Virus record (IMG/VR): IMGVR_UViG_3300030389_001641
Location: 1 to 56,869 of that record
Direction: 5' to 3' (one strand)
Origin: a virus
Length of the DNA: 56,869 nucleotides
In this document: one piece after another, positions 24,327-32,170 of the stretch
How positions within the stretch are numbered: position 1 is the first letter of the stretch
How the letters are laid out: each line of letters opens with the position of its first letter
Position numbers and translations under genes: made by a program
The notes under the pieces: model-generated
Told to the model about the DNA's origin: nothing
Database searches by the model: none
Seen by the model: only the letters and a program-made list of their open reading frames with translations

Positions 24327-24782
24327 ATGCCTAATCATTGTACAAATGAAATATATTTTAGTTTTAAAACTGAAAAAGACAAAGATCGTTTTTTAAAAAA
24401 CGTAGGAGGTAAAGACGAGAGTGGAGAGGAAGAACCATTTACTTTCAACAAGATTATTCCATTACCAGATGGTAAATGGGATTATGATTGGTGTTGGGAA
24501 AATTGGGATACCAAATGGGATTGCTATGAACTAGATGTTGATAGTGAAATCGGAGATGGAAGAACAACAGTCTCGATTAATTTTCTTACTGCATGGGGTC
24601 CACCCACAAAAATTTTGCAAAGAATTCTTGAGGAGCCGAAGTATTCCAAAGGTTTAGAATACGTTAGATGGTTTTATCGAGATGAGGCAGATCAGTTTTG
24701 TGGATATCTTGATGATGATTGTGGTTTAGAAAATGGAGAGGTAGTGACACCCAAAAAATTTACTGGAACCTATGATGCTTAG
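24327..24782 (+). CDS. DUF1281 / Api92-like ferredoxin-fold protein
   Basis: 151 residues from ATG 24327, chosen because GGAGG sits five bases upstream; an ATG at 24315 would swallow that site. Starts MPNHCTNEIYFSF and has FNKIIPLPDGKW, WCWENWDTKWDCYELDVD and FLTAWGPPTKILQRI, all typical of DUF1281 proteins of phages and plasmids (MPNHC.N...., F..I.P.P......W....WGTKW). The fold is known to be ferredoxin-like, the function not. Overlaps the methyltransferase start by 11 bases. Confidence 0.8.
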   Translation: MPNHCTNEIYFSFKTEKDKDRFLKNVGGKDESGEEEPFTFNKIIPLPDGKWDYDWCWENWDTKWDCYELDVDSEIGDGRTTVSINFLTAWGPPTKILQRILEEPKYSKGLEYVRWFYRDEADQFCGYLDDDCGLENGEVVTPKKFTGTYDA

Positions 24783-25902
24783 ACACGTAGATTTATGTAG
24801 TGGAATCGGGGGCTTTGCCCTCGGTTTCCATTGGGCGAAATTGTCCGAACCAGTATTATTTTGCGATACCGAACCATGGTGCAGACAGATATTAAATAAA
24901 AATTTTCCAAATATACCGATCGCTACAGATGTAAAGGAGTTAGCAAATGATCCAGAAAGACTTGTTCCCGACCACGACATCCTCAGTTGTGGATACCCAT
25001 GCCAACCATTCAGTGTTGCGGGTCTTAGAAAAGGAGAGGAAGATGATCGCCACATCTGGCCGAGCATCTTTAGAATTATTACACACAAAAGACCCTCTTG
25101 GGTCGTTTGCGAAAACGTTTATGGTCACGTTGCCTTGGGTCTCGACAAAGTGTTGTTTGACATGGAAAGCCAAGGCTACGCCACAAGGACGTTTATTGTT
25201 CCAGCTTGTGCCAAAAATGCGCCCCATAGAAGAGATAGACTCTGGATCATCTGTAAAAATGTGGGCGACACCGAGAGTCGGGGGCGAGGAGAGTTTCGAG
25301 AGTCTTCAGAAAAGAAAGGGAACGAAAGTTGCCAAATCGACAGGGGGCAATCTGTTGGCTCAAGTGGAGTACGAACAAATGTGGGCGACACCGAATACAA
25401 TGGATCATCTTCCACCGAGATCAAAAGAAGCTACCAAGAAAATGCAAGAGGGTCACAGAAAAGGGAGATCGAGACCGAGCAATCTCAGAGAACAAGTGGA
25501 CGAGGAGACCATGAAGTTATGGCCGACACCGAATGCTTGGGATGGGAACAGAGGTCCGAGGTCAAAGGAGAATTTGATCGAGAAAGATCACCAGATCAAT
25601 CTGATTTCAGCAGTAAAGGATGCCGAGGATCCAGATCCAGTACATCTTTGGCCGACACCGAGGGCAAGGGATTACAAGGATGGTCACAAGATACCACCGA
25701 GTATTCAAAATGGATCGAGGAGTCATCATCTTGGAACAAAAGTTTTGGAGAAGAAACAAACATCTGGAACGTTGAACCCAACGTGGGTCGAGTGGCTCAT
25801 GGGATACCCAAAAGGGTGGACAGACTTAAAGGACTAGGCAATGCCATTGTTCCACAGTTAGCCATGCAGATTGGTTTAGCTATAAAGAGTGATTTATCAT
25901 GA
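24772..25902 (+). CDS. dcm: DNA (cytosine-5) methyltransferase
   Basis: 376 residues with all core motifs in one frame: I HVDLCSGIGGFALGF (5-19), IV GYPCQPFSVAG with catalytic Cys77, VI ENV (114-116), VIII HRRDRLWII (152-160), X GRVAHGIPKRVDRLKGLGNA near the C-terminus. It transfers methyl from AdoMet to cytosine C5. The target-recognition part (residues about 165-320) is low complexity with four DTE-containing repeats (NVGDTE, NVGDTE, MADTE, LADTE). GC content and CCGA frequency are higher than in neighbours. A second 296-codon frame overlaps most of it. ATG 24775 is an equal start choice. Probably protects phage DNA against restriction. Confidence 0.92.
   Translation: MMLRHVDLCSGIGGFALGFHWAKLSEPVLFCDTEPWCRQILNKNFPNIPIATDVKELANDPERLVPDHDILSCGYPCQPFSVAGLRKGEEDDRHIWPSIFRIITHKRPSWVVCENVYGHVALGLDKVLFDMESQGYATRTFIVPACAKNAPHRRDRLWIICKNVGDTESRGRGEFRESSEKKGNESCQIDRGQSVGSSGVRTNVGDTEYNGSSSTEIKRSYQENARGSQKREIETEQSQRTSGRGDHEVMADTECLGWEQRSEVKGEFDRERSPDQSDFSSKGCRGSRSSTSLADTEGKGLQGWSQDTTEYSKWIEESSSWNKSFGEETNIWNVEPNVGRVAHGIPKRVDRLKGLGNAIVPQLAMQIGLAIKSDLS
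24947..25837 (+). CDS. Nested +1-frame gene inside the methyltransferase
   Basis: 296 codons open in the +1 frame. Its ATG has AAGGAG (24934-24939) seven bases upstream. Sequence: MIQKDLFPTTTSSVVDTHAN, TSGRASLELLHTKDPLGSFA, CCLTWKAKATPQGRLLFQLV, four WxTP units (MWATPR, MWATPN, LWPTPN, LWPTPR) and an end LNPTWVEWLMGYPKGWTDL. Trp-rich, ordered-looking text of this kind is not what a random shadow frame gives. From memory, free-standing phage ORFs with LWPTPT.. and WVEWLMGFP..WT occur widely near Dcm genes. Function unknown; could modulate the methyltransferase or be an independent early protein. Confidence 0.6.
   Translation: MIQKDLFPTTTSSVVDTHANHSVLRVLEKERKMIATSGRASLELLHTKDPLGSFAKTFMVTLPWVSTKCCLTWKAKATPQGRLLFQLVPKMRPIEEIDSGSSVKMWATPRVGGEESFESLQKRKGTKVAKSTGGNLLAQVEYEQMWATPNTMDHLPPRSKEATKKMQEGHRKGRSRPSNLREQVDEETMKLWPTPNAWDGNRGPRSKENLIEKDHQINLISAVKDAEDPDPVHLWPTPRARDYKDGHKIPPSIQNGSRSHHLGTKVLEKKQTSGTLNPTWVEWLMGYPKGWTDLKD
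25262..25661 (+). repeat. Four copies of TGG(G/C)CGACACCGA
   Basis: 13-base motif at 25262, 25382, 25520 and 25649, spaced 120, 138 and 129 bases (all multiples of three). In the methyltransferase frame it encodes (V/M/L)(G/A)DTE; in the nested frame W(A/P)TP. The conserved spacing class keeps both frames in register. Confidence 0.8.
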
Positions 25903-26558
25903 AAATAAATATAGACTATTCAGATTTGTTTTTGGCGGGAGTTTATTTTCTTATTAACAAGGGTAAGGTTGTTTACGTTGGTGAGTCTGGAAAAATAATT
26001 AACAGAATTCAAAATCATCATAAAGATACGGGTAACCCCAAAGTTTTTGACGATTTAAAAGTTATATCAACAAAGACTTTTTATTGGCTAAATGATTATT
26101 GGTTTAGACTATATTTTGAAAGAAGGTGCATTTATTTTTTTAAACCAAAGTATAATAAACAAGAGTATGCGTTAAAGTCACCAATCTCATTGAATAATTT
26201 TTTAATGAGAAGACATTTGTGGAATCAAAATCCACAATTTGTGAATGTTGTCTCTAATTATTGTGGAACAGAAAAATTCAATTCAAGTAAAAAACATACT
26301 ACATTTATGCAAAAATGGTTACATCACCGAAGTAAAAATGGAAAACTAACAAAGATATGCAACTATGAGGGAGATGTATATGAGTGCAAAGGCTATGACC
26401 AATTTTTCAGAACACTCGACCTAACAAAAAAGATTTACATAGATGGTGGCAGTGCTTTCCATTCACTTGTTGATGTTACTTTGACTAAAGATAAAATAAA
26501 AAAAATGAATCTAAATCAAAAGATGTTTAGGCCATTAACAAAAAGAATGCACAATTAA
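25899..26558 (+). CDS. GIY-YIG endonuclease
   Basis: 219 residues. N-terminal catalytic module: GVYFLINKGKVVYVGESGKI (GIY-YIG variant GVY...VYVG), NRIQNHHKD with the conserved Arg, and YFERRCIYFFKPKYNKQ containing the Glu/Asn positions. The C-terminal half (NYEGDVYECKGYDQFF) looks like a separate recognition domain. Overlaps the methyltransferase stop (ATGA). May be a homing-type nuclease beside the modification gene or a host-DNA degrading enzyme. Confidence 0.8.
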   Translation: MKINIDYSDLFLAGVYFLINKGKVVYVGESGKIINRIQNHHKDTGNPKVFDDLKVISTKTFYWLNDYWFRLYFERRCIYFFKPKYNKQEYALKSPISLNNFLMRRHLWNQNPQFVNVVSNYCGTEKFNSSKKHTTFMQKWLHHRSKNGKLTKICNYEGDVYECKGYDQFFRTLDLTKKIYIDGGSAFHSLVDVTLTKDKIKKMNLNQKMFRPLTKRMHN

Positions 26559-26559
26559 A

Positions 26560-26976
26560 ATGAACGAGGTTGAGACTGGTAAATTAGGCGAGCATATTTG
26601 TTGTGTTCGCCTAATAAAGTTAGGCTTTGGAGCAGAGATAGTAAATCTTAACAAGACAGATGTTATTGTAGACATACGAGGAAAGTTTTTAAGATTACAA
26701 GTTAAATCAAGTTCTTTGAGACCAGATAGCAATAGACAGATGAGATTGTCTTATCATTTCGCAGTTTCCTATTCTGGTAAAAAGAAACCATTAAATAAGA
26801 GTCATTGTGATATTTTAGCTTTTGTTTCTATACCAAAAGAAAAAGTTTACTTTATGCACATAGATTTTATTGGTGGTGCTTGTTCCAAAAGAATACATGA
26901 AAAATATTTTGAAGAAGAAGATTTAGAACAAAGGACATTTATCAAATGTCTAAAACATATGGGAGTTATTAAATAA
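26560..26976 (+). CDS. PD-(D/E)XK nuclease-like protein
   Basis: 138 residues: TGKLGEHICCVRLIKLGFGA (G.GE...), then NKTDVIVDIRGKFLRLQVKS with Asp and Q-x-K, and CDILAFVSIPKEKVYFM. This is the arrangement of small archaeal-type resolvases and the PDDEXK_5 nucleases found with introns and restriction genes. It follows the GIY-YIG gene after one base. Target unknown; probably acts with the methyltransferase as a restriction-like or recombination unit. Confidence 0.75.
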   Translation: MNEVETGKLGEHICCVRLIKLGFGAEIVNLNKTDVIVDIRGKFLRLQVKSSSLRPDSNRQMRLSYHFAVSYSGKKKPLNKSHCDILAFVSIPKEKVYFMHIDFIGGACSKRIHEKYFEEEDLEQRTFIKCLKHMGVIK

Positions 26977-30634: not shown

Positions 30635-32170
30635 ATGAATTTAACCGAAAGGTTCATGTCAGCTTTTAAAGGATCAGATTTTGCTCATGGACAAACAGAA
30701 ATTGGCAATAAAAGAAGAAACGGTAAAACTGAAGCAAAGAGTTTTATTGTGAAACAGCCTTTAACAAAAGAATTAATTGAAGATCATTTGGAAGGAACCA
30801 AGGGCATAGGATCAATACCAATTAACCGAGACAACAAATGTAACTTTGGTGTGCTTGATATAGATACCTATCCCATAGATCATTTAGAGATTAGAAAAAA
30901 ATGTCAAAAGTTAAACCTACCTTTAATTGTTTGTAGATCAAAGTCAGGTGGAGCGCATTTGTTTTTATTTATGAAAGAAGAAACCAAGGCAGTTGATATA
31001 CGTGATTACCTTGGGGAGATGTCTGCTGCACTTGGGTATTCGGGTTGTGAGATATTTCCAAAACAAGATGAGATTTTGTTTGAACGTGGAGATGTGGGTA
31101 ACTTCATCAACTTACCATATTTCAATGCTAAAAGCACAGTTCGTTATGCTATCGATAAGAATGGTGATGATTTATCTTTAGAAGAATTCTTAGATGAGAT
31201 TGACAGACTAAAAGTTGATTTATCTGATTTGGAGAAAATAGATTTTGGAACGCAAAGAGAACAATTTAATGATGCTCCACCTTGTTTGCAGATGTTTCTG
31301 TTAATGGGTATTCCCGAAGGAACGAGGAACAATGTCATGTTTAATTGTGGTATTTACGTAAAGCGTAAGTTTCCCGACTCTTGGAAGGAAAAACTGGAAG
31401 AAATGAACCAAAAACATTGTCTTCCACCTTTACTAGCGTCTGATATTGTAACTTTACAAGGTCAGCTAGATAAGAAAGAATATTTTTATACGTGTAAAGC
31501 CGAACCATTGGTAAGCCATTGCAACAAATCGCTATGTATGACCCGACAGTTTGGTGTGGGAACTTCTGAAGCATCTCCCGAAATAGGTGGTCTTACTATT
31601 CTTTTATCTGATCCAAGATTATATTTCTTAGATGTAGATGGTAAAAGACTTGAATTGACTACAGAGCAATTACAAATGCCTATACAGTTTCAACGTGCTT
31701 GCATGGAACAAATTAATTTTATGCCACCTTTAACTAAATCGGGAGATTGGCAACCGATTGTAAATAATCTTTTAAGCAATGCTACAGAGATAGAGGTCTC
31801 TGAAGAATTAACTGGCTCTGGTCAGTTTAAAGAACTTTTGGAAACTTTTTGCATGAGTAGAATTAGAGCAAAGTTTGCAGAAGAACTTGCAGTGGGAAAA
31901 CCTTGGACAGAAGATGGTAAGACATATTTTACCATGAAAGGTTTACAAGAGTTTCTAAAACAGCGAGGTTTTACTTTATATAATCGTCCACAGATTCAAC
32001 AACGATTGAAAGAGTTAAACGACAATCAAGAGTGTTGTGGTAAGTATAAGGTAAAAATGGAAAATGGATCCTGGAAAGACATTCGTGTTTGGTGGGTTCC
32101 AGAATTTGAAACTAATGAGGTAGAGATACCTTCGGACAAAGAGGAGTATGAAGACGATGTCCCTTTCTGA
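30635..32170 (+). CDS. AEP-type DNA primase
   Basis: 511 residues. Archaeo-eukaryotic primase core: FGVLDIDTYP with catalytic Asp75 and Asp77, CRSKSGGAHLFLFM (S-H motif, His108), and GNFINLPYFNA for the third acid/positioning site. The rest is helical, with a zinc-like Cys group (CNKSLCMTRQFGVG) and a C-terminal winged-helix-type region, ending EEYEDDVPF. It makes primers for phage replication. GGAG lies before the ATG. The VPF tip matches the SSB-like protein, suggesting a common partner. Overlaps the HTH gene start. Confidence 0.85.
   Translation: MNLTERFMSAFKGSDFAHGQTEIGNKRRNGKTEAKSFIVKQPLTKELIEDHLEGTKGIGSIPINRDNKCNFGVLDIDTYPIDHLEIRKKCQKLNLPLIVCRSKSGGAHLFLFMKEETKAVDIRDYLGEMSAALGYSGCEIFPKQDEILFERGDVGNFINLPYFNAKSTVRYAIDKNGDDLSLEEFLDEIDRLKVDLSDLEKIDFGTQREQFNDAPPCLQMFLLMGIPEGTRNNVMFNCGIYVKRKFPDSWKEKLEEMNQKHCLPPLLASDIVTLQGQLDKKEYFYTCKAEPLVSHCNKSLCMTRQFGVGTSEASPEIGGLTILLSDPRLYFLDVDGKRLELTTEQLQMPIQFQRACMEQINFMPPLTKSGDWQPIVNNLLSNATEIEVSEELTGSGQFKELLETFCMSRIRAKFAEELAVGKPWTEDGKTYFTMKGLQEFLKQRGFTLYNRPQIQQRLKELNDNQECCGKYKVKMENGSWKDIRVWWVPEFETNEVEIPSDKEEYEDDVPF

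Follow-up and report, generated by a model that had tools for sequence, protein, structure and literature searches.

The small domain of a normal C5-cytosine methyltransferase is made up of the variable or target-recognition domain (TRD) region together with conserved motif IX (PMC3404938). Two-polypeptide forms of the enzyme have been described: in M.EcoHK31I (YGGCCR) the large polypeptide carries motifs I–VIII and X and the smaller one motif IX, and in M.AquI (CYCGRG) the small subunit comprises part of the variable region and motifs IX–X (PMC3404938). The phages SPR, phi3T, SPbeta and H2 encode multispecific C5 methyltransferases in which several TRDs stand in tandem (PMC8936443 and its refs 58 and 59, citing Wilke 1988 and others). 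Here we characterise a locus in a 56,869-nucleotide stretch of viral DNA (IMG/VR record IMGVR_UViG_3300030389_001641, positions 1 to 56,869; the whole stretch is referred to as the window), where a methyltransferase gene, termed alpha, encloses a second gene, termed beta, in its +1 frame. Nesting of this kind has one bacterial precedent, M.EcoHK31I, whose beta gene is contained within its alpha gene in a different frame. Judging from sequence comparison, it is very probable that the window locus likewise encodes a heterodimeric C5 methyltransferase, with beta as the recognition and motif IX subunit.

A second gene inside the methyltransferase frame

Alpha (24772–25902; all features described here are on the + strand) is a C5-cytosine methyltransferase (Dcm) frame of 376 amino acids with motifs I–VIII and X and without motif IX, identified by Pfam (PF00145, E = 4e-37) and PHROG (phrog_363, E = 1.5e-66) profiles, an AlphaFold model and Foldseek. 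Beta (24947–25837; ATG start, 296 amino acids) is entirely contained in alpha, read in the +1 frame, and matches the phrog_1008 profile (E = 9.8e-35). An AAGGAG Shine–Dalgarno (SD) sequence (24934–24939) stands 7 bases before the beta ATG, and the same AAG GAG codons encode a Lys–Glu pair of alpha. A first-pass annotation of the window had pointed to exactly this 296-codon open reading frame (ORF) with its ATG and AAGGAG, and the peptide features it listed for the product, including four WxTP units, are all present.

When synonymous codons were shuffled in alpha, the beta frame acquired 7.9 stops on average and was open in none of 20,000 trials; when alpha codons were instead redrawn according to the codon usage of seven other ORFs in the window, the mean was 11.3 stops, with no open frame in 5,000 trials. 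The third frame is closed, with 13 stop-free segments in the window. Five canonical phage Dcms contain 5–13 stops in their +1 frame.

Across a set of 90 loci (80 viral-contig loci selected by beta similarity, nine annotated phage records and the window), both frames were unbroken over the match in 89, always with the same +1 offset and a closed third frame. A search with alpha residues 1–164 only, chosen to avoid picking loci by beta and matching on alpha residues, returned 80 loci, all of which had beta in the +1 frame, although this query overlaps the N-terminal part of beta and is hence only partly blind. A genome scan, from which 80 loci were kept in Bacillota, Bacteroidota, Pseudomonadota, Acidobacteriota, Planctomycetota and others, showed the same nest in all except a few variant or truncated loci. 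By tblastn, 114 phage records match, and gp51 of Paenibacillus phage Rani is annotated as 'g50 Internal gene'; the first-pass annotation was thus also right that nested ORFs of this type are found repeatedly with phage Dcm genes. In a plasmid search with K1G beta, matches were named solely DNA cytosine methyltransferase, hypothetical protein or DNA methyltransferase.

Two further loci were recorded during these searches. A Roseovarius metagenome-assembled genome (MAG) chromosome holds five copies of one alpha/beta locus (L198–L202) at different positions, perhaps repeated prophages. In Streptococcus phage P0093, a canonical Dcm with a motif IX of its own encloses gp47 (L172:2652-3071), which its annotation calls a second DNA methyltransferase; by eye gp47 has none of the features of beta and looks like a spurious ORF.

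Divergence by codon position, measured over 57 non-overlapping pairs of loci, was concentrated at alpha position 3 in the parts coding for alpha only (0.258 and 0.286), like in an ordinary gene. Where beta overlaps motifs IV–VIII, the rate at alpha position 3 was halved (0.130). The fastest site in the linker was alpha position 1, the wobble base of beta (0.233 vs 0.139 at alpha position 3), and alpha position 1 was also the faster one in the motif IX overlap (0.135 vs 0.080). Among isolated single-nucleotide polymorphisms (SNPs) in the linker, 387 changed alpha and were silent in beta, against 28 that were silent in alpha and changed beta, where the neutral count would be approximately 1:1. 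For SNPs in the IV–VIII overlap, alpha dominates, and changes to both proteins were depleted (59/482 vs 57% expected). The wobble shift and the SNP counts therefore show that beta is under purifying selection, that the DNA of the alpha linker is shaped by beta, and that the motif IV–VIII DNA serves both proteins.

The translation signal is retained as well. In 100/118 viral loci and 42/63 genome loci, the selected beta start has an SD match of at least 5 bases in front of it, compared with 6.6% of all ATGs in the viral loci; selection was by best score among candidates close to the family start, and the 100/118 figure is somewhat favoured by this. In the listed loci, DVKELAND and LTKESFY, as two different contexts in alpha, each yield AAGGAG through a Lys–Glu pair.

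Some genes have few stops in a second frame merely by chance, and the open +1 frame might on that basis be regarded as a by-product of Dcm codon usage or of amino-acid constraint. The absence of open frames among 20,000 shuffles, the opposite wobble phase with its SNP bias, and the +1 stops of canonical Dcms refute this explanation, which retains a negligible probability. Beta is a true second gene and not a by-product of the methyltransferase, and dual coding is established computationally. Nesting, selection and SD conservation thus bear out the proposal of the first-pass annotation that two conserved proteins come from the same DNA; the counter-evidence that it had named, homologues with frequent +1 stops or loss of the SD, was looked for within the alpha/beta family and did not refute the proposal.

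Probable division of methyltransferase motifs between alpha and beta

Motifs I, IV (PCQ), VI (ENV), VIII and X of C5-cytosine methyltransferases are all present in alpha. They include motif IV GYPCQPFS with the catalytic Cys (24991–25014; invariant G74, P76, C77, Q78, P79 and S81), the motif VIII region A-HRRDRLWII (25219–25251; invariant A150, H152, R154 and R156) and motif X (RVDRLKGLGNAIVPQLAMQIGLAI; 25813–25887; conserved columns, and a confident helix at residues 359–375 in the AlphaFold model). Confidence in the model is high over motifs I–VIII and the C-terminal motif X helix and low outside them (roughly 170–344), with residues 191–344 below 50 in predicted local distance difference test (pLDDT) score and predicted to be disordered. 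HhaI, the top Foldseek match of the model (E = 5e-13, ~166 columns), is matched over the large domain only (alpha residues 3–162). The canonical motif IX pattern was found in 0/134 alphas, and the five canonical phage Dcms have motif IX in frame. The TRD and motif IX that a monomeric C5 methyltransferase carries in the same chain are thus not together in alpha, which is without motif IX and without a folded recognition domain; its small domain is missing. Between motifs VIII and X lies a linker (residues 164–331; 25261–25764), predicted to be disordered from pLDDT and showing the SNP bias described above, the DNA of which also encodes the WxTP units of beta.

The N-terminal module of beta (24947–25258), overprinted on alpha motifs IV–VIII, features TSS..D and an LTWKxKATPQGRLLFQL hairpin, with W64, W73 and L87 conserved. 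These first ~100 residues, with the hairpin predicted at 69–91, have no known counterpart and may contact alpha or form part of the small domain. At its C-terminus beta bears an almost invariant G-LNPxWVEWLMGYPxGWTDL at the place of motif IX; in the window this motif-IX-like element is GTLNPTWVEWLMGYPKGWTDL (25766–25828; near-invariant columns), overlapping alpha EPNVGRVAHGIPKRVDRL.

Relatives with a rearranged order place this element in context. In mycobacteriophage Fancypants, gp73 is a single chain comprising motifs I–VIII, LPTP units, RLAAAFPEWMMGWPAGWVT (an LxxxFxEWMMGWPxGW element) and motif X, and it matches phrog_363 over its whole length (1.5e-70) and phrog_1008 over residues 249–407 (1.1e-48). 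In Mycobacterium phage Kampy (gp78/gp77) and two genome loci (L183 and L255), the I–VIII ORF ends early, and a second ORF unites WxTP units, an element of the LNP..EWLMG type and motif X within a single frame. Thus, in L183, L255, Kampy gp77 and Fancypants gp73 alike, the motif-IX-like element of beta is followed by an in-frame motif X. The order of these fused and split relatives, namely motif VIII, WxTP units, IX-like element and motif X, therefore indicates that the beta module corresponds to the TRD–IX place between VIII and X. At the Fancypants locus (L259:1986-3212), the N-terminal module of beta is still open in the +1 frame over motifs IV–VIII, and the WxTP–IX–X part is in the alpha frame.

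Single-chain relatives such as Fancypants gp73 would also be expected if a frameshift after motif VIII joined the N-terminus of alpha to the C-terminus of beta, so that beta was not a separate protein. However, the SD match before the beta start in 100/118 viral loci, the retention of motif X in alpha's own frame, and the conservation and constraint of the N-terminal module over motifs IV–VIII, needless for a shift after VIII, make this very unlikely.

Several observations weigh against placing the small domain on beta. In a profile alignment (hhalign) of the IX–X segments, using KLTPRECWRLQGFPD as the canonical motif IX for comparison with the LNPxWVEWLMGYP element, LNP..EWLMGYP fell on LTPRECWRLQGFP in the expected register with weak statistics (P = 0.023). 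The AlphaFold model of beta alone was poor (mean pLDDT 48.8, predicted template modelling score 0.18) and was judged unfit for a fold search. Sequence searches of PDB chains with beta and the beta profile gave no match, and a Pfam search of beta gave no family, only baeRF at E = 0.22. Relatives with the WxTP–IX–X arrangement also matched no Pfam family. It is the positional argument, more than profile similarity, that carries weight in the putative assignment of motif IX to beta. Finally, the TRD of M.EcoHK31I has been reported on its alpha (PMC3404938), and that of the window pair appears to be on beta.

This last point would favour a reading in which the alpha linker performs recognition, as reported for the predicted TRD on the large subunit of M.EcoHK31I (PMC3404938), and beta contributes motif IX and a scaffold only. 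We consider it unlikely: the linker is predicted to be disordered and its changes are mostly silent in beta (387 vs 28), OwlsT2W gp71 leaves little room between motifs VIII and X, and the WxTP units of Fancypants, Kampy and L183 share a frame with IX and X and occupy the place of the TRD. No TRD is assigned to the large subunit here, the alpha linker being predicted to be disordered and being shaped by beta.

For beta taken by itself there is neither a known fold nor a characterised homologue, and a protein for regulation, inhibition or early anti-host action, overprinted on the methyltransferase, could be considered as an alternative. Such a role is highly improbable, given that alpha is without motif IX and the small domain, that the beta module fills this position in fused relatives, and that beta accompanies alpha at every alpha-queried locus. 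Of the functions suggested by the first-pass annotation, inhibition, replacement of the methyltransferase and early anti-host action accordingly gained no support; activation comes closest, beta being the apparent missing half of the enzyme.

Out-of-frame homing endonuclease insertions do occur in related methylases of mycobacteriophages, such as the ShiLan element (PMC11855218), and the nested frame might have been another. Family searches found no endonuclease family in beta, and the ShiLan element is an HNH protein in the third frame with patchy occurrence, whereas beta is always present, in +1 and over the catalytic motifs; the idea is refuted, with next to no probability left. Separately, an alpha-N-terminus ORF from a Synergistaceae MAG (L248:1144-2646) has, by eye, an HNH-like insert (CEICG...HHHDYNRP...WLCQKCHH) before motif IV, which may be compared with the ShiLan element.

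WxTP units as candidate recognition cassettes

In 175 distinct beta proteins, the N-terminal module is separated from the IX element by 1–7 WxTP units of ~30–45 residues each, with borders set by a simple W-x-T-P pattern. The window has four: unit 1 (25262–25381; type T26), unit 2 (25382–25519; type T1, present in 76/175 beta proteins), unit 3 (25520–25648; type T14) and unit 4 (25649–25765; type T13). Where alphas were at least 80% identical over motifs I–VIII, 377/432 locus pairs differed in their unit series, and among alphas less than 60% identical, 369/2,384 pairs shared a unit at least 70% identical; pairs are not independent in either count, and the latter is limited to alphas with motif I, leaving out truncated contigs such as L015 and L080. 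Examples include units 86–87% identical on alphas 42–58% identical. Pairs with near-identical alphas include L060/L024 and L097/L098. For five pairs of unit types either order is seen, among them window units 3 and 4, which are reversed in L040. On these comparisons the units appear to behave as recombining cassettes, a pattern that fits TRD swapping, and each WxTP unit may be a TRD.

In the heterodimer that we favour, alpha would be the catalytic large domain, with motifs I–VIII and X connected by a flexible linker that acts as a spacer and owes its sequence to beta. One mRNA would serve for both proteins, alpha being translated from its own start and beta, in the +1 frame, from the internal SD and ATG. 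Beta would supply the small domain, that is, target-recognition units (WxTP cassettes) and motif IX, and the two proteins would fold together into one active enzyme with a large and a small domain. As an orphan phage enzyme, it would methylate the phage's own DNA and so evade host type II restriction, and cassette exchange could change or add target sites, tracking the restriction enzymes met. More tentatively, and with somewhat less than even confidence, beta may be a modular reader whose WxTP cassettes are gained, lost and exchanged among phages as dual-frame DNA blocks, so that the phage retargets or broadens self-methylation with its catalytic subunit untouched; the enzyme would then be a naturally cassette-based C5 methyltransferase of two subunits, possibly multispecific, read from two frames of a single DNA. 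Should the WxTP units act as specificity cassettes, phages with near-identical catalytic halves could be compared for their target sites, making the recognition code directly testable.

Elsewhere in the window, a GIY-YIG-like gene (25899–26558; Pfam E = 0.001, below the cut-off) lies between alpha and a PDDEXK_5-like gene (26560–26976). In the close relatives L090 and L091, the PDDEXK gene directly follows alpha and the GIY-YIG gene is absent, with a partial match in L094 only; because of this absence, the window gene looks like a mobile insertion. A primase-like protein (30635–32170), situated in a replication module, has matches to phrog_21866 and, in Pfam (E = 7.5e-19), to the AEP domain known from TOTE conflict systems.

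Comparison with known systems

By profile match, the window proteins are members of the PHROGs families phrog_363 (alpha) and phrog_1008 (beta), both of which are labelled only 'DNA methyltransferase', with the overlap and the division of labour absent from the label. With phrog_1008 already so labelled, and with C5 methyltransferases known that consist of two polypeptides, the smaller of which bears motif IX (M.EcoHK31I, PMC3404938), the first-pass description of an undescribed system was overstated. A literature search found no paper describing the nested phage gene, subscription papers being mostly beyond its reach. What is new is the explanation, the breadth and the cassette behaviour; the PHROGs labels and the annotators' internal gene (Rani gp51) were already known. 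The alpha/beta family is large, old and built from exchangeable cassettes, in phages and several bacterial phyla. Among the loci examined, it provides a long, well-supported same-strand nested gene pair with a catalytic domain in one frame and, probably, a recognition domain in the other. The nested pair explains many phage and prophage 'Dcm' records that have no recognition domain or only one annotated frame; the beta frame is annotated without a full alpha in Xanthomonas phage FoX4 (gp11), Cyanophage Cy-LDV1 (g54) and Komagataeibacter phage phiKX1 (L260, L084 and L085).

Like the window locus, the ShiLan HNH element (PMC11855218) is a second protein in another frame of a related phage methylase, but it is not a methyltransferase subunit. 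The multispecific enzymes of SPR, phi3T, SPbeta and H2 (PMC8936443) resemble the present pair in their tandem TRDs, a part that the WxTP units could play; they are single chains, and the likeness drawn here is one of arrangement. An M.AquI-like split, with IX and X on the second ORF, is seen in L183, L255 and Kampy gp78/gp77. Unlike M.AquI, the window pair keeps motif X in the alpha frame, with beta wholly nested. The closest resemblance is to M.EcoHK31I: the window alpha has motifs I–VIII and X and is without IX, and the small-subunit gene is nested in another frame. As this comparison is with the published description, not with the sequence, the pair is not filed as a proven M.EcoHK31I-type member. 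Two features go beyond that description, in that the recognition domain appears to lie on beta and not on alpha, and that beta proteins of the window family carry 1–7 exchangeable WxTP units.
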